Positions 979 through 13,851 of a DNA stretch of 22,417 bases are shown here, piece after piece. The position numbers and the translations under genes were made by a program. Positions within the stretch are counted from its first letter, which is position 1. The number at the start of each line of letters is the position of its first letter. Location: positions 1 through 22,417 of IMG/VR virus record IMGVR_UViG_3300033183_000035, one strand, 5' to 3'. The notes under the pieces are model-generated. The model saw only the letters and a list, made by a program, of their open reading frames with translations, was not told the origin of the DNA and did not search any database. Source of the stretch: a virus.

Positions 979-1541
979 GCATTACAGGTTATCCAAACTA
1001 TACACGCCTAACAAGCACAGGCGGTGGCAATGTAGTCACATTCGGTGGTGGCAACATTGATGCGTTTGGTAGACTACGTGTAAGCGAACCTTTTACTATA
1101 TTTGACAGTCAAAATCGTTTTGGTATTGATGCACAGTTTGATAGCAGCACATCTGGTTCTGCTACGGCAACACATCTTCCTAATGAAAGCAGTGTGGCAC
1201 TTGCAGTGACTACTGCTTCTGGTGATGAGGTTATTCGTGAAACAAAACGAGTGTTTCCTTATCAACCGGGTAAGTCTTTGATGACGATGTGTACGTTTGC
1301 AATGGCTGCATCTCAATCTAATTTGCGACAACGGGTTGGTTACTTCGGTGCTAATGATGGTGTATATTTTGAACAAAACGATACAGACAAGCGTTTTGTA
1401 ATCCGAACATCAACAAGTGGTAGTTCTAGTGACGCAAGGTTTGTTACACAATCTAATTGGAACACTGATAAACTGGATGGCACTGGACCTAGCGGTCATA
1501 CGCTAGATGTTACCAAAACACAAATTCTAATAATTGATTAA
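975..1541 (+). CDS. Phage structural protein, N-terminal part (ends at an in-frame TAA)
   Basis: These 188 residues are the N-terminal part of a marine-phage virion protein. Recognisable features are the opening SITGYPNYTRL, the GGGNVVTFGGGNIDAFGRLR motif, NESSVALAV, ETKRVFPYQPGKSL and a GVYFEQN segment. These are beta-rich stretches typical of a tail- or capsid-associated structural family. The frame ends with TAA at 1539-1541, but the codons directly after it continue the same protein without a shift, so this is not the natural C-terminus. The start overlaps the previous gene as ATGA. If the stop is real the virion receives a truncated product, or readthrough supplies the full 420-codon form. 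The family is recognised from memory and its exact place in the particle is unknown. Confidence 0.75.
   Translation: MSITGYPNYTRLTSTGGGNVVTFGGGNIDAFGRLRVSEPFTIFDSQNRFGIDAQFDSSTSGSATATHLPNESSVALAVTTASGDEVIRETKRVFPYQPGKSLMTMCTFAMAASQSNLRQRVGYFGANDGVYFEQNDTDKRFVIRTSTSGSSSDARFVTQSNWNTDKLDGTGPSGHTLDVTKTQILIID
1539..1541 (+). other. In-frame premature stop codon (TAA)
   Basis: TAA stands between ...TQILIID and EWLGVGTVRCGFIIDG... with both sides in the same frame. The downstream side remains open from 1542 to 2237. One base change (for example TTA Leu or CAA Gln to TAA) would explain it. TAA ends most genes here, so it is not generally reassigned. The context GAT TAA GAG is not a known readthrough signal that I recognise. 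Confidence 0.8.
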
Positions 1542-2237
1542 GAGTGGTTAGGTGTTGGCACAGTAAGGTGTGGGTTTATTATTGATGGTGAAATTGTAAT
1601 ATGCCACAAGTTTCATAACGCAAACGAAGAAACTGCTGTATATATGAAAACGGCTATCTTGCCGATACGTTACGAAATTACGGCTACAGGCACTTTGTCT
1701 AGCTCCGCAACTATGAAACAGATTTGTTCTACGGTTATTAGTGAAGGTGGCTATAATCGGTATGTTCAATCTGATATTGCTCGTAGAACTTCTACAACAT
1801 CTGTCGGCACATCTTTTGAGCCGTTAGTTTCTATAAAATTGAATAGCAGTTATCTTGACGCTATTGTTTTGGTTAGAGCATTTGATATTTTGGCTACTTC
1901 TTCAGGGGACGACTTTGAAGTAGCACTTATTAAAAATGCAACGCTAACGGGTGCTTCTTATGATACAAGCACATTTGACCACGTAGATTTTGATGTGACA
2001 GCTACAGCTTTGACAGGTGGAACTATAGTAGATGTAAGCTATGCTTCACAAGGTTCTTTCTTTTTTCCGGGCGGTCAGCCCAGCATTGCTTCAGATTTAA
2101 CATATAATTATGCTTTGCAGTTAGGGCGAACACAGGCTGGTGTAAGTGATGTCTTTACTTTAGCTGCTCGTGTCTTAACAGGAACAGGAAGCATACTAGG
2201 CAATTTAAGTTTCTTTGATTTAACTAACGGAGCATAA
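1542..2237 (+). CDS. Phage structural protein, C-terminal part (continuation after the TAA)
   Basis: This is the continuation of the frame that opened at 975. The stretch 1542-1643 has no ATG but encodes the conserved-looking EWLGVGTVRCGFIIDGEIV and CHKFHNAN segments, so the gene is intact apart from the stop. An internal ATG at 1644 (MKTAILPIRYEI) could restart translation, but it has no good Shine-Dalgarno. The rest includes the SATMKQICSTVISEGGY motif (about 1700-1752), which I associate with this structural family, followed by beta-rich sequence that ends SFFDLTNGA. The preserved codons after the stop suggest a recent mutation, a sequencing or assembly error, or suppression. The next gene starts two bases after its TAA. 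Confidence 0.7.
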   Translation, partial: EWLGVGTVRCGFIIDGEIVICHKFHNANEETAVYMKTAILPIRYEITATGTLSSSATMKQICSTVISEGGYNRYVQSDIARRTSTTSVGTSFEPLVSIKLNSSYLDAIVLVRAFDILATSSGDDFEVALIKNATLTGASYDTSTFDHVDFDVTATALTGGTIVDVSYASQGSFFFPGGQPSIASDLTYNYALQLGRTQAGVSDVFTLAARVLTGTGSILGNLSFFDLTNGA

Positions 2238-2238
2238 T

Positions 2239-2577
2239 ATGCAAACTAAAAATCGCACCGTTGGATTAGAACTGACAACAAGCAATCAAGACATTTATAC
2301 TGTACCGTCAAACTACGAAGCAGAAGTAGATAGCATTTTTATTAGCAATGCTAGTTCGTCTAAAGTTACATTTAGCCTAGACTGGTATGACAGTCAAACT
2401 ACCACATATTTCACGATTGCAGAGACTGTAGACATTGAAGCCAATTCAATGGTCCATATTAACGATGACCCATTTTGGCTTTTTAAAAATGATAAACTAC
2501 GTGGTCTTGCTAGTGCCAATAGTGCAGTTACAGTAATTGTAAAACTGCGTGAATCATACTTACCACAACGGAGTTAA
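2239..2577 (+). CDS. Small virion protein, beta-rich
   Basis: This 112-residue protein has a good ribosome-binding site (GGAG, 2229-2232, 6 nt). It looks like a single beta-sandwich domain: alternating hydrophobic strands such as DIYTVPSNYEAEVDSIFISN, a VTFSLDWYDS motif, TIAETVDIEANSMVHI, and a final AVTVIVKLRESYL. Short proteins with the YTVP...VDSIFISN...FSLDWYD pattern are frequent in marine phage structural blocks and are usually listed as structural or hypothetical. It follows the interrupted structural gene with two bases between, so the two products are probably made together and may contact each other. There is no signal peptide or membrane segment. Decoration, fibre-base or tail accessory roles are possible, and the sequence does not choose among them. 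Confidence 0.75.
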   Translation: MQTKNRTVGLELTTSNQDIYTVPSNYEAEVDSIFISNASSSKVTFSLDWYDSQTTTYFTIAETVDIEANSMVHINDDPFWLFKNDKLRGLASANSAVTVIVKLRESYLPQRS

Positions 2578-2582
2578 AGGAG

Positions 2583-2942
2583 ATGCCCCTAACAACAAAA
2601 GGAAAAAAAATTAAATCTGCCATGACCAAGCAATATGGGGAGAGTAAGGGTGAAGACATCTTCTACGCAGCAGCCAACAAAGGAACAATTAAAGGCGTGG
2701 CGAAAGGCCAAAAACTCAAGGCGGGTGGGGCAGTTGGAAAAAGTAGCAAACCGAAGGTCAGTAAAACGAAGAGCAAAAGTAGAGTTAATGAGGCTGGCAA
2801 CTACACTAAACCAGCACTAAGAAAAAGATTATTTGAAAAGATTAAGGCTGGCAGCAAAGGCGGTAAGCCCGGTCAGTGGTCAGCCAGAAAAAGTCAAATG
2901 TTAGCACGTGAGTATAAGGCAGCAGGAGGCGGCTACAAATGA
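2583..2942 (+). CDS. DUF5872-like basic protein
   Basis: This is a 119-residue, very basic protein with two recognisable parts. The N-terminal piece (about 5-40) reads KGKKIKSAMTKQYGESKGED followed by FYAAANKGTIKGV, a small motif common in marine phage proteins. The C-terminal piece (about 70-119) has RVNEAGNYTKPALRKRLF, KAGSKGGKPGQWSARKSQML and AREYKAAGGGYK, the DUF5872-type signature. A Lys/Ser linker joins them. AAAGGAG abuts the ATG directly, so the usable Shine-Dalgarno is more likely GGAG at 2570-2573 with 9 nt spacing. Function is unknown; the charge fits DNA binding in the particle. It ends in TGA at 2940-2942, just before the next start. Confidence 0.8.
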   Translation: MPLTTKGKKIKSAMTKQYGESKGEDIFYAAANKGTIKGVAKGQKLKAGGAVGKSSKPKVSKTKSKSRVNEAGNYTKPALRKRLFEKIKAGSKGGKPGQWSARKSQMLAREYKAAGGGYK

Positions 2943-2943
2943 T

Positions 2944-3171
2944 ATGTTGCATGTATTCCTGCTATTGGTATATCTAGGTACAGGAGATACCAGACAGTTA
3001 ATTAGCAATGACATGTACTTTCGCAGTGTAAATGACTGCAACTATTTTGCTCAACAATTATCAAAAAGGTATGGGAACTATTATCACAGAGATTACATAG
3101 ACCCAGAAGACAGGGTAACGGCTTATTGCATACCCAAATACGTTAACCCCGACAACGTAAGGATATATTAA
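2944..3171 (+). CDS. Small secreted or membrane-anchored hypothetical protein
   Basis: The longer frame opens at GTG 2908, but the ATG at 2944 gives the better product: a hydrophobic N-terminus (MLHVFLLLVYLGTG) that looks like a short signal or anchor sequence. It is followed by a polar domain with NDMYFRSVNDCNYFAQQLSKRYG and TAYCIPKYVNPDN. GGAGG at 2925-2929 lies 14 nt upstream, somewhat far. The two cysteines could form a disulfide outside the cytoplasm. I recall similar 70-80 residue proteins in marine phages without a known role. Placement just before a membrane protein and the lysis genes makes an envelope-related job plausible (inference). Confidence 0.7.
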   Translation: MLHVFLLLVYLGTGDTRQLISNDMYFRSVNDCNYFAQQLSKRYGNYYHRDYIDPEDRVTAYCIPKYVNPDNVRIY

Positions 3172-3651
3172 ATGGACCCCGTTACCGCAATGGCAACAGC
3201 CTCTGCAGCATTTAATGTTATCAAAAAGGGATTTGCTGTAGGACGTGACATTGAGCAGATGGCAGGTGACTTGGGTCGCTGGATGAGTGCATTGTCTGAC
3301 ATTGAACAGGCAGAGAAAGAAGCAAAGAATCCTCCTATCTTTAAAAAGTTATTTGCTGGCAAAAGTATTGAACAAGAGGCTATGGAAGCCTTCGCTGCTA
3401 AACGTAAAGCACAGCAGCAACGTGACGAACTAAAGCAATGGCTACAATACACAGTAGGTTCACGTGCTTGGGACGAACTGATTCAGATGGAAGGTCAGAT
3501 TCGTAAGCAGCGACAAGAGACACTATACAGACAGCGTGAACGTAGACAGAAGTTTATTGAGTGGGTTGTGATTGGCATAGCATGTTTGCTTGGATTGGGT
3601 ATACTTGGCGCATCGGTTTATTGGGGAATGAAAAATAGAGGTATGATTTAA
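3172..3651 (+). CDS. Tail-anchored membrane protein, phage hypothetical
   Basis: This 159-residue protein starts one base after the previous stop, with AAGGA at 3159-3163 (8 nt spacing). The N-terminal third has a small hydrophobic segment (DPVTAMATASAAFNVIKKGF). The centre is charged and helical with coiled-coil character (DIEQAEKEAKNPP, AFAAKRKAQQQRDELKQWL, KQRQETLYRQRERRQK). The C-terminus carries one clear transmembrane helix (EWVVIGIACLLGLGILGASV, about 129-148) and a short charged tail. This is a conserved architecture in marine phages near holin genes, but the function is not established. Spanin-like or holin-regulating roles can be imagined; no lipobox or other decisive motif is present. 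Confidence 0.75.
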   Translation: MDPVTAMATASAAFNVIKKGFAVGRDIEQMAGDLGRWMSALSDIEQAEKEAKNPPIFKKLFAGKSIEQEAMEAFAAKRKAQQQRDELKQWLQYTVGSRAWDELIQMEGQIRKQRQETLYRQRERRQKFIEWVVIGIACLLGLGILGASVYWGMKNRGMI

Positions 3652-5587: not shown

Positions 5588-5981
5588 AAGCGTAGGCAAG
5601 TGGAAACTTCCACAGCCAACAGACATAAAAGAACAAGACGAATGGGTACAGATACCTCGCATTGCAAGGACTGTACCATTTGGCTACAAGCAAAATGAAG
5701 AAGACCCCGATATTCTTGACCCTATTAAAACTGAATTAGACTTGCTTGAAAAGGCTAGAAAATACGTCAACCAATACTCGTATCGTGAAGTGGCAAATTG
5801 GTTGAGTGCAAATACAGGCAGATACATTTCACACGTAGGATTAAGGAAGAGGATAGCGAATGAACGACAGCGTAAGAACCAAGCTGCAAGCCTCCGCAAG
5901 TGGGCAAGTTATGCGCAAGCGGCAATCGCCAAAGCGGAAGCCCTTGAAGAAAACAGAACAGGCGCAAAGGCCAGCGGTTAA
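5577..5981 (+). CDS. Terminase-associated DNA-binding-type protein
   Basis: This 134-residue protein starts inside the end of the small-terminase gene and itself overlaps the large-terminase start by 122 nt. The N-terminal half has GKWKLPQPTDIKEQDEWVQI and RTVPFGYKQNEEDPDILDP. The middle (about 60-105) reads YVNQYSYREVANWLSANTG then RYISHVGLRKRIANERQRKN, which looks like a helix-turn-helix of the recombinase or regulator kind. A long Ala-rich helix follows. I recall this region preceding the terminase ATPase in marine phages, sometimes apparently as part of the same chain. It may bind the packaging site or guide TerL. Whether it is a separate protein or is joined to TerL by frameshifting is open. 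Confidence 0.75.
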   Translation: MTTRSVGKWKLPQPTDIKEQDEWVQIPRIARTVPFGYKQNEEDPDILDPIKTELDLLEKARKYVNQYSYREVANWLSANTGRYISHVGLRKRIANERQRKNQAASLRKWASYAQAAIAKAEALEENRTGAKASG

Positions 5982-6117
5982 GATTGCAGAGGTAGAATAC
6001 GAAACATCTAATATAGAGGAACATGCAAATGTTCTTTTTAAGCCTAACGCCGGGCCACAGACAGATTTCTTGGCCGCTTCTGAAAGAGAGGTTTTATACG
6101 GCGGTAGTGCTGGTGGT
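5860..6117 (+). CDS. terL: Terminase large subunit, exon 1
   Basis: This is the first 86 codons of the large terminase. The ATG at 5860 has a good Shine-Dalgarno (AGAGGA, 5848-5853, 6 nt) within the preceding gene; ATG 5911 is an alternative. After a basic N-terminal segment come NVLFKPNAGPQTDFLAASER and EVLYGGSAGG, the first half of the Walker A loop. Homologues continue GKSYAML directly. Here the frame instead enters a group I intron at 6118 and meets TAA at 6193-6195, so unspliced RNA gives only a 111-residue dead product. Joining 6117 to 6905 restores GGSAGGGKSYAML exactly. The full spliced protein is 519 residues. Confidence 0.85.
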
Positions 6118-6904
6118 ATGTTAAAGTCTGACACGTTGCCACCTTTCGCAGTAATGCGTCAAAATAAACTGGGTGAACTGCTGGAAACCCGATAAGGGCA
6201 ATCAGCAGCCAAGCCTCGAAAGAGGAAGGTTCAGAGACTATCCGCAAGGAGTAGGCCATATTGGTCGAAGCGCCCAGCCCCTGCAGACAACAGGGTGAAG
6301 ATATAGTCCGCAGCATTATCTATACCATTACATTATGTAATGAAGTACCAAGAGGTAGTTAAATGCAATATCTTTTATACAAGGCTACTTCGCCTTCTAA
6401 CCGTATTTATATTGGTGTTACCAATAACTTTAAGCGAAGGATGAAAGAACACCTATCTTCAAAATACCCATTTGGAGAAGCACTAAGAAAATATGGGAAA
6501 CACAATTTTACTTACGAGTTTGAACAGTTTGATTGTGTCGAGGATGCATTATTAAGAGAAGCAGAACTTGTTACTGAAGAACAAGTCAAAGATAAAAAGT
6601 ATTATAATGTTGCAGTAGGCGGCGGTAATACAAAAATGCTTTTACATAATAATCCTATGCATAGAAAAGAAGTAGTTAAAAGTCACCCAAATTTGTTTTC
6701 AAGTGAATACAATCCTATGTATAATAGTGAATCTAAACAAAAGATGATAGAGTCACAAGATAGAAAACAAGTAAGTATTGATGGTGTTGTATATGATGGA
6801 GTTAGGATAGCTGCACGTAGTATAGGATACTCAAGGCAGAGGTTAATACACCGGCTTAAATCCAACAACTACCCTAATTGGAAATATGTATAGATAATGC
6901 TGTG
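6118..6904 (+). ncRNA. Self-splicing group I intron (IA-like) in terL
   Basis: The 787-nt intron has boundaries that follow the group I rules: the exon ends in U (6117) and the intron ends in G (6904). P1: exon GGTGGT (6112-6117) pairs with GCCACC (6138-6143), placing U·G at the splice site. P2: 6147-6150/6155-6158 with a GTAA loop. P3: 6169-6175/6271-6277. P4: CTGCTG 6178-6183/CAGCAG 6203-6208. P5: 6188-6190/6196-6198. P6: 6214-6217/6222-6225 with a GAAA loop. P7: GACTAT 6236-6241/ATAGTC 6303-6308, with the hallmark TTCAGAGACTA and AAGATATAGTCC boxes. An extra hairpin (6279-6283/6291-6295) between P3 and P7 is a IA feature. P9-like hairpin: 6326-6332/6336-6342. The endonuclease gene fills the 3' part. 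Confidence 0.92.
6363..6893 (+). CDS. GIY-YIG homing endonuclease with NUMOD-type tail
   Basis: This is the intron-encoded mobility enzyme, 176 residues. The N-terminal GIY-YIG nuclease reads YLLYKATSPSNRIYIGVTNN (LLY at 4-6 in place of GIY, YIG at 16-18), then FKRRMKEH with the candidate catalytic Arg25/26. Glu66 or Glu68 (LLREAELV) is the likely metal ligand, and YYNVAVGG (80-87) closes the fold. The middle has two NPM motifs (97-99, 117-119) of the NUMOD3 kind. The C-terminus (137-176; VSIDGVVYDGVRIAARSIGY, then SRQRLIHRLKS and a final PNWKYV) is a NUMOD1-like helix-turn-helix. It should cut intronless terL near the Walker A codons. AGAGG at 6351-6355 (7 nt) is its SD. Codons are AT-rich. 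The stop lies only 11 nt before the 3' splice site. Confidence 0.9.
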   Translation: MQYLLYKATSPSNRIYIGVTNNFKRRMKEHLSSKYPFGEALRKYGKHNFTYEFEQFDCVEDALLREAELVTEEQVKDKKYYNVAVGGGNTKMLLHNNPMHRKEVVKSHPNLFSSEYNPMYNSESKQKMIESQDRKQVSIDGVVYDGVRIAARSIGYSRQRLIHRLKSNNYPNWKYV

Positions 6905-8206
6905 GGCAAATCCTACGCTATGCTTGCAGACCCGTTAAGATATATGGGGCATCCATCATTTAGTGGATTGCTGCTTCGGCATACAACTGAAGAACTGCGT
7001 GAACTCATATTTAAGTCGCAGGAGTTGTACCCAAAAATCTGGCCCGGAATAAAGTGGTCAGAAAGGAAGATGCAGTGGACCGCACCATCTGGCGCAAGGT
7101 TGTGGATGTCATATCTGGATAGGGATGATGACGTCTTGCGTTATCAGGGTCTAGCGTTTAGCTGGATAGGGTTTGACGAGTTGACACAATGGGCCACACC
7201 ATATGCATGGAATTACATGCGAAGTCGTCTACGTTCCACTGCCCCTGATTTGCCTATCTTTATGAGAGCCACAACAAACCCCGGAGGTAGAGGACATCAC
7301 TGGGTAAAGAAAATGTTCATTGACCCAGCACCTTACGGGAAGCCATTTGATGCCACAGACATTGAAACCAATGAAGTGCTGCGATATCCTGCAGGACACG
7401 CAAAAGCAGGAAAACCTCTGTTCAAACGGAGATTTATCCCTGCGAGACTTACTGATAATCCTTACTTATCCGAATCAGGTGACTACGAAGCAATGCTTCT
7501 GTCACTACCAGAGCAACAAAGAAGGCAGCTTTTGGAAGGTGATTGGGATATTAAAGAAGGGGCAGCGTTTACTGAGTTTGACCGCAATATTCATGTTGTT
7601 GAGCCTTATCGTATCCCTAGTAACTGGGTTAAGTTTCGTGCTTGCGATTATGGTTACGGGTCTTATAGCGGTGTACTTTGGTTCGCAGTCTCTCCATCAG
7701 AGCAGCTTATTGTCTACAGAGAACTTTACGTATCAAAAGTACTTGCAACAGACTTGGCAGAGATGGTACTGGACTTAGAGGCAGAAGATGGGAATATTAA
7801 GTATGGCGTTCTTGACAGCAGTCTATGGCACAAGAGAGGTGACACTGGGCCAAGTCTCGCAGAACAAATGATTCAAAAGGGTTGCCGCTGGCGACCATCC
7901 GACAGAAGTAAAGGCAGTCGTGTTGCTGGTAAAAACGAAATACACCGCAGACTGCAGATAGATGAATACACAGAGGAACCTAGACTTGTTATCTTTAACA
8001 ATTGCACCAATCTTATCTCACAATTGCCAGCATTGCCGATTGACAAGAAAAACCCAGAAGACATTGATACAACGTCTGAAGACCACCTGTATGACGCTCT
8101 TCGGTATGGTATAATGTCAAGACCAAGGTTTAGTATATTTGACTATGACCCAATGGGTAGACCCGGTGGTGGCATGAGAGTTGCAGACAGCACATTTGGC
8201 TATTAA
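6905..8206 (+). CDS. terL: Terminase large subunit, exon 2
   Basis: This holds the remaining 433 residues of the packaging ATPase/nuclease. It starts GKSYAMLADP (Lys88 and Ser89 of the spliced protein, the second half of Walker A). The ATG at 6878 gives a frame running into this exon, but its first nine codons are intron sequence and it is not a true start. Walker B is SWIGFDEL (Asp177, Glu178), followed by the coupling motif RATTNPGG. The C-terminal RNase H-like nuclease shows its three acidic positions: Asp334 (RACDYGYG), Asp390 (GVLDSSLW) and Asp479/483 (DHLYDALRYG). The protein pumps DNA into the prohead and cuts the concatemer. The portal gene follows 12 nt later. Confidence 0.95.
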   Translation, partial: GKSYAMLADPLRYMGHPSFSGLLLRHTTEELRELIFKSQELYPKIWPGIKWSERKMQWTAPSGARLWMSYLDRDDDVLRYQGLAFSWIGFDELTQWATPYAWNYMRSRLRSTAPDLPIFMRATTNPGGRGHHWVKKMFIDPAPYGKPFDATDIETNEVLRYPAGHAKAGKPLFKRRFIPARLTDNPYLSESGDYEAMLLSLPEQQRRQLLEGDWDIKEGAAFTEFDRNIHVVEPYRIPSNWVKFRACDYGYGSYSGVLWFAVSPSEQLIVYRELYVSKVLATDLAEMVLDLEAEDGNIKYGVLDSSLWHKRGDTGPSLAEQMIQKGCRWRPSDRSKGSRVAGKNEIHRRLQIDEYTEEPRLVIFNNCTNLISQLPALPIDKKNPEDIDTTSEDHLYDALRYGIMSRPRFSIFDYDPMGRPGGGMRVADSTFGY

Positions 8207-10354: not shown

Positions 10355-10490
10355 TTATATTGATGCGTTGATTGAACAAAATCATCGTACTCTTGAACAA
10401 GGTGATAATACAATTCTTATGCATCGTGCGCAAGGTGCAATTGCAGTGTTGCGTAGTATGAAGAAACTAAGGGATGCAGTAAATGGATGA
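10284..10490 (+). CDS. Small helical protein after portal
   Basis: This 68-residue helical protein starts within the end of the portal gene. I prefer ATG 10284 (MDKELLSKLKPLVNNKRQW) over the upstream GTG at 10275, because the MD-x-LLxKLKPLV opening looks like the natural start of the family. AAGGA at 10266-10270 is 13 nt from the ATG and 4 nt from the GTG, so the SD does not settle it. The rest (HFSNYIDALIEQNHRTLEQG, RAQGAIAVLRSMKKLRDAV) forms two amphipathic helices of coiled-coil type. Similar short proteins sit between portal and later head genes in marine phages; a portal or head-assembly accessory role is likely but unproven. The stop overlaps the next ATG by 8 nt. Confidence 0.75.
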   Translation: MDKELLSKLKPLVNNKRQWDHFSNYIDALIEQNHRTLEQGDNTILMHRAQGAIAVLRSMKKLRDAVNG

Positions 10491-13400
10491 TGTTAATAAG
10501 CAGACAGAAGAAATGTTATCTCCCGATGACATGATGCTGGATTCAAAGCCTGTAACACCTGAAAAATTAGCAGAAGCAAAGCAAGATGCAAAAGAAATAT
10601 TTTTTGAGTCTTTTCCGGGAATTGGAGAAGCAGCATCCGCTGGTAGAGTTGTTAAAGAACTAAAAGAAAAAGATTACGTTGGTGCTGGTATTGAAGGTGT
10701 TGCAGGTCTTGTTGGAGTTTTGCCTGTCGCTGGAGATATAGTTGGAAAAGGTATTAGGAAAACAGCGAGCAAACTTCGTAAGTCAGATATTCAAAATGCA
10801 GAAGAACTTTTAGATAATCCAGATAAAATGATGGAATGGCAAGAACAAAATAAACTGCCCGAAACACAACGTCAAGCAAATCCAGAAGTATCTAAAAAAG
10901 CTGCCGAAGATTTATTTGAAGGTAGAATAACTTCTAAACAGGCAAGAGAAGAAATACAAAGTGCCATACCTGCTCCTCAATTATATACAGCAGATAATAT
11001 GCCAGAAATGCCTACTGTAACCGAAGTTACTGGCTCTTTAGGGAAAAAGGCAGGAAAATTCGGAATACTTGGTGTAAAAGGTTTTGATTTAAAACCGGGG
11101 CAAAAGGTATCATCTAGGCTTGATATCCCAGCATACAATAATTACGACACATGGGTAGTATCAATACACGATGGAACAAAAGATGCTGGTTCTGTAGTTG
11201 GTTTTGGTCAAGCAATACGATTAAAAAATATTAGTTTTGGTTCAAAATCAAAAGAAGCCCTAGATATTGCAAGAGGAAAAAGAACTGTAGCAAAAACTGG
11301 CGAAGATAAGCCTATGGGCAAATCTACAATAGCCCGTATTTTTGGTGAATATGTACCAGAAGACCCTTATGTATTACAGGAAGAAGCCAGAAAATTACTT
11401 GCCGATCCTAAATCTGGGTGGACACAAGTTGGAATGAATCCCTATAGAGGCAGTGCCTTTTATAATAAGGAAACTGGTATGCCTGTCTTTGAGGCCGATG
11501 AAGTAATTCAAGTTGGACCTCTTGTCTTGGCTAAAAATGTAAAAAAACCAACTCTAAGTCAATTAAGAGAACTTGCTGTAAAAACAAGAGATGGCAAGAT
11601 TAGAATGTTTAATAAGGGTGGTAACGCTATGTCTATTGCAAAACAAATGGAAATGTTTGAAAACGGCGGCCTTATGGATGAAGGCGGTTCTGTTGACGAA
11701 GAATCAGGTAACGAAGTTCCACCGGGTTCATTGAAAGAGGAAGTTCGTGACGACATTCCCGCCCAACTAAGTGAAGGCGAATTTGTTTTTCCTGCAGATG
11801 TAGTTCGTTACTACGGACTTGAGACATTGATGGAAATGCGGCAACGGGCTAAAGCAGGGCTTGCTCGTATGGAAGCAATGGGTCAAATGGGTAATAGTGA
11901 AGAAGCCACACTTCCTGATGATATTCCTTTTACACTAGAAGACCTTGACATAGAAGAAGATGAGTACAATTACCAGATTGGTGGTTATGTTCCGGGCCAA
12001 TACAGTGGACAGGGCTACGGTACATATACATTGCCCGGAACTGGTGTTATGCAACAGCAGCCATCTTATCTGTCTACATACGGACAGCAGGTATCGCAAC
12101 AACAGCCAATAGATTATGGTATATATAATGTACCTTCTCAGCAACAATTTAGACCAGCTACATATACACCAGAGCCTTACACAGGTCCAAGATTTGAAGA
12201 TATAATTCCTACGCCAACAGGTGCGTATGATGAATTACGTAGATATGTAAATGCGCAAGGTCAAGTGCGCATGATTCCATTTGTAGATGGAAAGCCGCTG
12301 TATCCAATTCCACAAGGATTTTATCCAGAGGCAGAAATACAAGAGCAAGTTCCTGATGCTGTAGCACCTACAACTGGTCAAACAAGTGTTAGAGAAGGTG
12401 GGGATAGAAGCCAAGATGAAATGGGCGGCGGTGACATGAAAAGTGCTGCAGCGTCATTAGGTTACACTTCTGGCTCTGGTACATTAGCCGGATTAGGTAC
12501 AGCAGTGGCAGGTGCTGCTCTTGGTCTTCCCGGTTTAATAGGTGGATTTGGAAAATCTCCTACTTATGGAAATTTTGGAACAATAGACCCCGGTACAGGT
12601 GCTGTATTTGGGCAGTCTAATATTCCGGGTGCTATGGGCGGTACTGTGGCACAAGGCTACAGTCCAATAACAGGACAGCCTGTTTCAGTATTTTCTGGAA
12701 CTCCATCTGCAGGATATATGGGTTCTAGTGTAGCTAGTGCTTTTGGATTTGGTCCTTCTAGGTATTCTGCTCCAAGACTTGATGCGGCTACACCAATGGG
12801 CAAACTAGGATTAAAATCTACACTTGATATTGCTGTGTCAAATACTCTTGGATATGATGTTACTATTTCAAAAGAGAGACTGGAAGCAATGCCAAGTACT
12901 GCATATAAGTCCCAGCCAATTAGCGCATCTATGCTAGGATTTAGCCCAACACAGGCATCTTATAGCTTGGCAGAAAAAAATACAGGTACTATAGGTTCTG
13001 ATACAGGAAATATTACGGCAACAGATTTTGGTCTTGGTGTTGTAAACGAATCTAATCAAGTAGAAACGCCTAAAGGTACTGTAGTTCAAGTTGATTTTAA
13101 AGATGGCACTAAAGGTTCTTTGTTGGGAACGCCTGAAGAAAATAAAGAAGTTTTAGACAAATACAATCAAGAAAAAGGTCATGAGCCGGGTCCAAGTGGA
13201 CCTTCCGCACCTGCTGCTCCCGGAGGCGGTGGAAGTGGTCCACCAGCATCAGAAAAGGGGCAGGGTCCAAGCACAGGTGGAACAGATACTACAGGTGAAA
13301 CAGATACAGGCGGTAGCCCAAGTGCTGGTGGCGGTTCTGAACCTGATGATGATGGTGGCGCACCTTCTGGCGGCAACAGCATGGGTGACCAAGGTCGCGA

Positions 13401-13851
13401 CCGAGATGGTCGTGATGGTCCTCCGGGTAATGACAGTCCAAGTGGCTCATCTTGTTTTGCTGCTGGCACTAAATTTATCATGGAAGATGGGACAACCAAA
13501 AACATTGAAGACATCAAGATTGGTGATAAACTTAAACTTGGTGGGCGTGTGTATTCAACCATTCAAGGCGATGGTCTTATTGAAACATGGTATAATTACG
13601 GAACTACTAAGGTTACTGGAAATCACGCCATATTTGAAAACGGTGAATGGAAACGTGTCAAGGATGCTAAAGAAGCAATTCCAGCCCTACACAAAGAAGA
13701 GATTCTCTACACTCTTATCAACGAAAACCACAGAATGGTTGCAGAAGATGGAGTTGTCTACACTGACTACGATGAAGTTGACAACACAGGAATTGAAGAA
13801 GATTTGCTCATTCAACTTAATGGGCAAGGTGCTGAAGCAACAGCAGCATAA
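10483..13851 (+). CDS. Large multidomain virion protein with C-terminal Hint domain
   Basis: This is a 1122-residue modular protein. Residues about 35-95 hold a Gly/Ala/Val-rich hydrophobic segment (GIGEAASAGRVV, GVLPVAGDIVGKG). Residues about 208-360 form a conserved globular block (SRLDIPAYNNYDTWVVSIHD to VIQVGPLVLAKN). Residues about 395-492 carry the GGLMDEGGSVDEESGNEVPP, RDDIPAQLSEGEFVFPADVV and GLETLMEMRQRAK motifs, seen in many marine phage proteins. Residues 493-640 are Tyr/Gln/Pro-rich, 648-692 hydrophobic Gly/Ala-rich and 900-990 a Gly/Pro/Ser linker. From Cys991 a Hint domain begins (CFAAGTKFIMEDGTTKNIED, block-B-like TGNHAIF). A virion-internal or ejected protein that may self-cleave at Cys991 is the inference. 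SD AGGG is about 9 nt upstream. Confidence 0.8.
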   Translation: MDDVNKQTEEMLSPDDMMLDSKPVTPEKLAEAKQDAKEIFFESFPGIGEAASAGRVVKELKEKDYVGAGIEGVAGLVGVLPVAGDIVGKGIRKTASKLRKSDIQNAEELLDNPDKMMEWQEQNKLPETQRQANPEVSKKAAEDLFEGRITSKQAREEIQSAIPAPQLYTADNMPEMPTVTEVTGSLGKKAGKFGILGVKGFDLKPGQKVSSRLDIPAYNNYDTWVVSIHDGTKDAGSVVGFGQAIRLKNISFGSKSKEALDIARGKRTVAKTGEDKPMGKSTIARIFGEYVPEDPYVLQEEARKLLADPKSGWTQVGMNPYRGSAFYNKETGMPVFEADEVIQVGPLVLAKNVKKPTLSQLRELAVKTRDGKIRMFNKGGNAMSIAKQMEMFENGGLMDEGGSVDEESGNEVPPGSLKEEVRDDIPAQLSEGEFVFPADVVRYYGLETLMEMRQRAKAGLARMEAMGQMGNSEEATLPDDIPFTLEDLDIEEDEYNYQIGGYVPGQYSGQGYGTYTLPGTGVMQQQPSYLSTYGQQVSQQQPIDYGIYNVPSQQQFRPATYTPEPYTGPRFEDIIPTPTGAYDELRRYVNAQGQVRMIPFVDGKPLYPIPQGFYPEAEIQEQVPDAVAPTTGQTSVREGGDRSQDEMGGGDMKSAAASLGYTSGSGTLAGLGTAVAGAALGLPGLIGGFGKSPTYGNFGTIDPGTGAVFGQSNIPGAMGGTVAQGYSPITGQPVSVFSGTPSAGYMGSSVASAFGFGPSRYSAPRLDAATPMGKLGLKSTLDIAVSNTLGYDVTISKERLEAMPSTAYKSQPISASMLGFSPTQASYSLAEKNTGTIGSDTGNITATDFGLGVVNESNQVETPKGTVVQVDFKDGTKGSLLGTPEENKEVLDKYNQEKGHEPGPSGPSAPAAPGGGGSGPPASEKGQGPSTGGTDTTGETDTGGSPSAGGGSEPDDDGGAPSGGNSMGDQGRDRDGRDGPPGNDSPSGSSCFAAGTKFIMEDGTTKNIEDIKIGDKLKLGGRVYSTIQGDGLIETWYNYGTTKVTGNHAIFENGEWKRVKDAKEAIPALHKEEILYTLINENHRMVAEDGVVYTDYDEVDNTGIEEDLLIQLNGQGAEATAA

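Follow-up and report, generated by a model that had tools for sequence, protein, structure and literature searches.

How can a phage make its packaging motor when the gene for the large terminase subunit (terL) is cut in two within the codons of its Walker A motif? The question is raised by the stretch studied here, the whole of IMG/VR virus record IMGVR_UViG_3300033183_000035 (22,417 nucleotides (nt), hereafter the window), a single environmental record in which terL is interrupted between the codon GGT (6115-6117) and the codon GGC (6905-6907). The window is a contig of an HMO-2011-type, marine-type phage; its TerL is 86.9% identical across the full query to the TerL of Puniceispirillum phage HMO-2011, which is uninterrupted. 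An earlier, sequence-only reading had proposed that a group I intron carrying an endonuclease gene lies between the two halves. Our analysis indicates that the insert is very probably a mobile, IA-like group I intron lodged between two glycine codons in the Walker A motif of an HMO-2011-type terL and predicted to excise itself and to home. Group I introns that carry a DNA-cutting gene of their own are a familiar sort of genetic parasite.

The insert (6118-6904) is 787 nt long, which is not a multiple of three, and without splicing the terL frame runs into a stop at 6193-6195. Joining 6117 to 6905 gives an in-frame TerL of 519 residues in which the Walker A motif LYGGSAGG-GKSYAML is restored, and the splice sites proposed earlier between GGSAGG and GKSYAML are correct to the base. 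Alignment with intronless relatives agrees with this: the intron is absent, with a gap of 0 at the site, from all 80 of the best-matching IMG/VR TerLs (best 80 of 600 candidates).

The ribozyme core

The Rfam group I model RF00028 matches the window at 6096-6327 (70.8 bits against a gathering score of 50, E 2.1e-16), the sole group I intron that Rfam finds in it, which bears out the original call. P1, in which the exon GGTGGT pairs with the guide GCCACC and a U.G pair stands at the cut, had likewise been read exactly, and all six of its pairs form in each of the 23 complete introns compared at the same site, the window's included. This set, whose alignment starts at the end of the exon, extends as far as P7 and was scored on a structure drawn up from the window, leaves out L082, L087, L094, L098, L100, L223 and L227 (L numbers are our handles for contigs and loci), which are truncated, misoriented, intein-bearing or near-duplicate. 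The guide tracks the third base of the exon glycine codon, the third P1 pair being A-U in 12 introns, U-A in 10 and G-C in one. Over the 43 pairs of the structure 96.8% of cells are paired, compared with a shuffled mean of 83.0%; two-sided changes are found at 19 of the 43 pairs (13.1 in shuffles), and the covariation score is 0.380 against a shuffled mean of 0.117, while sliding the structure never gives more than 0.072. The final base is G, and GK(S/T) follows in frame after joining, in 23/23 introns. The criterion for the IA subgroup is the presence of P7.1 and P7.2 between the 5' strand of P7 and the 3' strand of P3; with both helices present, the intron would appear to be of the IA-like phage type.

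In a separate scan RF00028 was also passed by L087, L256, L264, L427, L428 and L430. The intronless L266, scanned along with the eight intron-bearing relatives discussed below, fell short of the gathering score, as expected. A pattern search for the group I core returned at least 119 loci with at least 123 sites, of which two loci (L154 and L168) match the window TerL by tblastn, and the core alone was rejected as a marker for terL on this count. Four contigs (L137, L173, L192 and L200) each carry the core pattern twice, with a spacing of roughly 0.35 to 3.5 kb.

The P9 helix and the endonuclease gene

Directly after P7 (...UAGUCC, ending at 6309) an unbroken helix of 16 bp begins, P9, whose distant strand lies just before exon 2 at 6905. 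Among the 23 introns the helix formed by each intron's own partner strands is 8-17 bp long (mean 13.1), whereas partners swapped between introns give a mean of 3.3; 18 of the 506 swapped pairings reach at least 10 bp, which we attribute to near-identical introns. This difference places the endonuclease gene in the P9 loop. The 3' splice site is predicted to be set by this long helix, which was absent from the elements listed in the sequence-only reading.

The GIY-YIG endonuclease expected inside the intron is confirmed by its domains, both of which (GIY-YIG and I-TevI_DNA-bd) exceed the Pfam cut-offs in the open reading frame (ORF) at 6363-6893, and by its relatives at the same site. Y6, Y16, R25, R26, H30, E66 and N82 are invariant in 15/15 aligned endonucleases, and the Tyr, Arg, His, Glu and Asn residues among them presumably have the catalytic roles that they have in I-TevI. 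In the PDB the I-TevI DNA-binding domain (1i3j) comes out on top in sequence comparison as well as in fold comparison, weakly each time (fold E 0.022). When the window endonuclease was searched by tblastn against the annotated phages collection, the best match per record was below 60% identity (534 records). A bacterial reservoir of the enzyme was considered and set aside, a collection of genome contigs giving one weak match. A full-length endonuclease frame is kept in 20 of the 23 complete introns. Of the others, L101 retains residues 102-176 only, L235 has an in-frame remnant and L262 scattered remnants; each of these introns has kept its ribozyme, its P9 and its splice sites, and scores above the RF00028 gathering threshold. 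Homing elements are known to pass through a cycle of invasion, decay and loss, and these decayed endonucleases are consistent with it.

In 21 of the 23 introns, the truncated L101 included, the endonuclease frame stops 7-15 nt before the intron end (the gene is broken in L235 and L262), so that the last codons of the gene overlap a strand of the 3' splice-site helix. A ribosome finishing the gene would therefore be expected to open the P9 helix that presents the 3' splice site. At the other end of the gene, the hairpin over the likely ribosome-binding site could regulate its translation. Because the 3' splice-site helix uses the last codons of the endonuclease gene and the start of the gene is covered by a hairpin, one may tentatively imagine, at rather long odds, that endonuclease translation and terL splicing are mutually exclusive on each transcript; this would form a translation-sensed switch that times the packaging motor and chooses between homing and phage production. 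Between 5800 and 7000 three promoters were predicted (2.5 in shuffles), and no terminators (0.8 in shuffles). The features of the locus are collected in the table.

Table. Features of the interrupted terL gene and its intron (positions in the window; MFE, minimum free energy)
Feature	Position	Strand	Basis
terL exon 1, 86 codons, ending ...LYGGSAGG	5860..6117	+	Joins exon 2 in frame; aligns with exon 1 of intronless TerLs
IA-like group I intron of 787 nt, containing P7.1/P7.2 and ending in omega-G (6904)	6118..6904	+	RF00028 70.8 bits; covariation, 23 introns
P1 exon strand, GGUGGU, U at -1	6112..6117	+	23-intron comparison
Internal guide sequence GCCACC, P1 3' strand	6138..6143	+	Pairs with exon in 23/23
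P2 hairpin CGC/GCG	6147..6158	+	3/3 counted pairs changed on both sides; 85.5% of cells paired
P3 5' strand, partner 6271-6277	6169..6175	+	4/7 pairs changed on both sides; 99.4% of cells paired
P4 (6179-6184/6202-6207) around P5 (6188-6190/6196-6198)	6179..6207	+	P4 98.6% of cells paired, 0 two-sided changes; P5 by eye
P6 (6208-6209/6229-6230) and P6a (6214-6217/6222-6225)	6208..6230	+	P6a, 4/4 pairs changed on both sides
P7 5' strand GACUA, partner 6304-6308	6236..6240	+	5/5 pairs in all 23 introns; one is C-G in 13 and U-A in 10
P7.1 (6241-6243/6248-6250) and P7.2 (6254-6257/6263-6266)	6241..6266	+	P7.2, 4/4 two-sided changes; P7.1 invariant
P3 3' strand	6271..6277	+	Covariation analysis
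P8 hairpin CCCUG/CAGGG	6279..6295	+	2/3 counted pairs changed on both sides
P7 3' strand UAGUC	6304..6308	+	Covariation analysis
P9 5' strand GCAGCAUUAUCUAUAC	6310..6325	+	16 continuous pairs with 6888-6903
Small hairpin CAUUAC/GUAAUG in P9 loop	6326..6342	+	By eye; present in MFE fold of the stretch
Hairpin UACC-AAGA-GGUA over likely endonuclease ribosome-binding site	6346..6357	+	Motif in 11/23 introns
GIY-YIG homing endonuclease, 176 residues, with I-TevI-type DNA-binding domain, in P9 loop	6363..6893	+	Pfam GIY-YIG E 3.2e-8, I-TevI_DNA-bd E 8.6e-10
P9 3' strand, overlapping last codons and stop of endonuclease gene	6888..6903	+	Helix comparison, 23 introns
terL exon 2, GKSYAML..., 433 codons and stop	6905..8206	+	Terminase_6N E 2.4e-5; in-frame join; gapless relatives

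Distribution, target site and mobility

The same 5' junction is present in 30 contigs including the window, and in 28 of these the 3' junction is also visible; several are near-copies of one another, for example L096 and L098, or L092, L094 and L095. The surroundings were surveyed as three neighbourhoods of the best 80 TerL loci each, giving 240 loci with some contigs recurring between scans. Of these loci 236 are intronless (234 with the usual GG and two with GGSAGS), two are intron contigs already known and two are intein-like. Two pattern searches for the family returned 16 and 19 stretches, 15 and 13 of which are at the same terL site; the remainder comprises two at another terL site (L256 and L264) and five that do not match the window TerL. 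The introns at this terL site make up a family that is unusually clear and spread over many wild phages. One intron-bearing contig, L083, also has a match to the abiF RNA above its gathering score (832-867, 40.5 bits).

It had been argued that the insertion site is a target that the phage cannot easily mutate away. This holds for the amino acids: in an alignment of 205 intronless sequences Gly, Gly, Ala, Gly, Gly, Gly and Lys each score 1.00 and the motif is invariant apart from Ser/Ala, with upstream conservation partly built in, as the sequences were selected for having G[GS].[AG]GG ahead of the site, a pattern that excludes two of the 240 loci (GGSAGS). For the DNA it holds only in part. 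Among 184 distinct intronless sites T is found at -1 in 109, and GG(A/T)GGT, which represents the two common guide types, in 85. Synonymous changes at the site leave the guide imperfectly matched in many alleles. Nor is the target the most conserved DNA of the gene, an idea that we reject: 8 of 451 gene segments are more conserved than the 36-nt segment from -30 to +6, and 85 of 451 than that from -18 to +18, with others, for example at GHHWVKKMFIDP, scoring higher. The argument from a conserved protein target has already been published in general form (PMC2814812).

The few codons around this site are crowded. In L336 and L410 the P-loop is interrupted at GK^S by an apparent intein tail ending ...HN^S, just upstream of 1998, as judged from sequence only. 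L256, whose TerL, like that of L264, is distant from the window TerL, has a single Walker A motif that holds a related intron at the first glycine pair (RF00028 72.8 bits, around 2760-3029, - strand), a different GIY-YIG gene and, at GK^S, an intein-like LAGLIDADG insert; L264 (8021-8290) gives the same tblastn and Rfam picture, the detailed reading having been made on L256. L087 combines the same-site intron with an in-frame LAGLIDADG-like insert before TTNPGG (1164-3443; E 0.0002, just under cut-off). The cultured Rhizobium phages RHph_N3_13 (L427, 2009-2230) and RHph_I3_11 (L428) carry identical endonuclease-free introns in terL, exon 1 of which is named hypothetical protein in the deposited records. 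Their intron is like that of the window in its RF00028 match (60.7 bits), its GGTGGT exon, its GCCACC guide and its place in the P-loop of a related TerL. It is unlike it in being 222 nt long without an endonuclease and in lying 12 nt upstream, after the first GGTGGT (LYGG^SAGGGK). RHph_N3_19 is an intronless relative of both, 98% identical in exon 2. To judge from this pattern, the same handful of packaging-ATPase codons may be contested by RNA introns and protein inteins.

Mobility was assessed on a TerL tree that combines 23 rows with the intron and 60 without it, the latter thinned by identity from 234 intronless loci with 15 hand-named. On this tree, which was searched quickly and leaves 21 of its 78 inner branches open, the presence of the intron needs 12 changes, at least 8 of them forced by starred branches, and the window falls in a starred set with ten intronless rows and no other intron row. 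The closer a relative's TerL is to that of the window, the lower the identity between the two endonucleases tends to be (Spearman -0.72 over 14 non-independent pairs). The endonuclease tree covers 15 of the 23 introns, as L101, L235 and L262 have no intact gene and L154, L222, L225, L236 and L242 were lost to the motif filter; in the ribozyme-core tree a starred branch of 14 introns excludes the window.

The clearest case of transfer is that of L096, which has the intron, and L266, which is intronless; the exon 2 proteins of the two are identical. Their DNA is identical at 344/540 positions (63.7%) over the 540 nt that precede the site and at 575/600 (95.8%) in the next 600, whereas L096 and L097, both with the intron, are identical at 536/540 positions (99.3%) in the 5' tract and at 517/600 (86.2%) in the next 600. 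Their introns share 832 of 852 positions, and on the 3' side the closer resemblance of L096 to L097 (90%) than to L266 (70%) is limited to the first 30 nt. Similarity of the tract above that of the backbone argues for recent transfer of the intron and its 5' flank between the L096 and L097 lineages, which could have run in either direction. L095 and the intronless L291 make a weaker case (93/120 adjoining the site, 113/124 farther out). L091 and the intronless L391 (96.7%) form a second plus/minus allele pair besides L096/L266, without a transfer tract, and co-conversion near the window itself is not clear against L014 or L066. Taken together, the patchy distribution, the allele pairs, the common tract of about 540 nt and the decayed endonucleases point to homing, in line with the mobility first proposed.

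It would seem likely, then, that the RNA folds into a P1-P9 core and is excised via the U.G pair 6117/6138 and the omega-G at 6904, joining GG to GK, with the long P9 helix, the endonuclease gene in its loop, bringing the 3' splice site to the core. In mixed infections the GIY-YIG enzyme would cut intronless terL alleles near the same codons, and repair would copy the intron into the cut allele along with mostly 5' exon sequence. A number of observations weigh against this account. The tested structure was itself taken from the window, and one of the five covariation measures, further pair types, gave 44 against 40.5 in shuffles, equalled or exceeded in 51/500 shuffles. With the Rfam fast filters the RF00028 gathering score was reached by three of eight intron-bearing relatives (L262, L101 and L235), L083, L088, L096, L154 and L236 falling below it. 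P10, the pairing of the guide region with exon 2, is weak in the window, where a by-eye reading found none that was convincing. The model of the endonuclease is fair only (predicted local distance difference test, pLDDT, 73; predicted template modelling score, pTM, 0.42) and every fold match in the PDB stays above E 0.001. When all 105 pairs are taken, endonuclease identity shows no correlation with TerL identity (0.03), no starred branch of the endonuclease tree contains the window, and in the ribozyme-core tree the window sits on a long branch, weakly (56/81) with L083, L085 and L091. Finally, the 540-nt boundary and the other tract limits were set after the profiles had been seen.

A rival reading is of an intron that splices but is no longer, or rarely, mobile, being mostly inherited and often lost with little active homing. 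Such an intron would fit the endonuclease-free or decayed copies (L101, L235, L262 and the Rhizobium isolates) and the L091/L391 pair, and the change counts on the TerL tree cannot separate gain from loss. We consider it improbable nonetheless, as the L096/L097 tract needs recent transfer, the similarities of the window endonuclease and TerL run opposite ways and most complete introns keep the full-length endonuclease frame. An intron that benefits the phage, its splicing timing TerL synthesis (a possibility raised in the sequence-only reading) or its endonuclease disabling the intronless terL of competitors, would be compatible with the mobile intron that we favour, and is conceivable if rather doubtful: all 80 of the best-matching relatives manage without it, while the overlap of the endonuclease frame with the 3' strand of P9, the hairpin that covers the likely ribosome-binding site of the endonuclease gene in 11/23 introns and the precedent of phiPA3, whose intron endonuclease has been shown to interfere with phiKZ (PMC11620839), speak for it. 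An insert that is translated with TerL, whether as a protein intein or as an additional domain, is hardly credible in spite of the apparent inteins at the neighbouring GK^S site in L336, L410 and L256, since stops break the frame, its length is not a multiple of three and the RNA covaries; on these grounds we ruled it out. An assembly artefact or a truly dead, split terL is just as hard to credit. The window is one environmental virus record, yet the same 5' junction is found in 29 other contigs, a related intron is found in two cultured Rhizobium phages, and both exons are intact and in frame.

Elsewhere in the window, the ORF at 10483-13851 (1122 residues) has a Hint-like stretch near its C-terminus (13453-13533, starting CFAAGTKF; Hom_end_hint at residues 991-1017, E 4.5e-5, below cut-off), which may reflect self-cleavage of a phage protein. 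A weak match to RAGATH-32 RNA at 10726-10785 (23.3 bits against a gathering score of 41.8, E 0.15) is probably due to chance.

Comparison with known systems

The HMO-2011-type marine phages are an abundant group, and at one pair of codons the family offers a natural series that runs from unoccupied sites through full introns to introns whose endonuclease is broken or missing, together with a transfer tract that can be traced. Isolates of Rhizobium phages, some carrying a related intron and others lacking one, would allow splicing and its cost to be put to the test. In phage T4 the td intron lies in the thymidylate synthase gene and has its ORF in the P6 loop. The window's intron resembles td in having an IA-type core that includes P7.1/P7.2, and its endonuclease, like I-TevI, is a GIY-YIG enzyme whose DNA-binding domain is of that same type. 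The intron differs in that it lies in a terminase gene with its ORF in the P9 loop, adjoining the 3' splice site.

Group I introns in terL are known from the Bastillevirinae, where that of SIOphi is spliced in vitro and in infection (PMC11878797). These are different phages, and the terL-associated endonuclease cluster there is HNH with a VSR-like domain; the same paper puts forward, for other phages, the idea of 'molecular-on-switches', which is akin to splicing-timed packaging. Introns in terL are also in print for the Jug phages. The terL of ICP1 is spliced, as seen by RNA-seq and reverse transcription PCR, and like that of the window has a short N-terminal exon, though its T5orf172 endonuclease gene is beside the intron and not inside it (PMC10448857). 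In Lactobacillus phage LL-H (NC_009554) terL is likewise annotated as two joined pieces around an endonuclease gene; here, however, the enzyme is HNH and exon 1 extends well beyond the P-loop, by our own reading of the sequence as the borders are not annotated. Selfish elements in the same motif are also known as inteins, in the TerL Walker A motif of mycobacteriophages, most commonly at or beside Lys-Thr (PMC5050341); these use protein splicing, whereas RNA splicing between two glycine codons is predicted for the window.

For the window's terL intron itself no published report was found among the matches listed from the open-licence literature (HMO-2011, group I intron/terminase/P-loop, Rhizobium phage), and the words 'intron', 'homing' and 'intein' are absent, by text search, from the main text of a survey of the HMO-2011-type group (PMC9038755). 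Introns in terL and inteins in its Walker A motif are already known, and the intron of the window is a well-supported new example.

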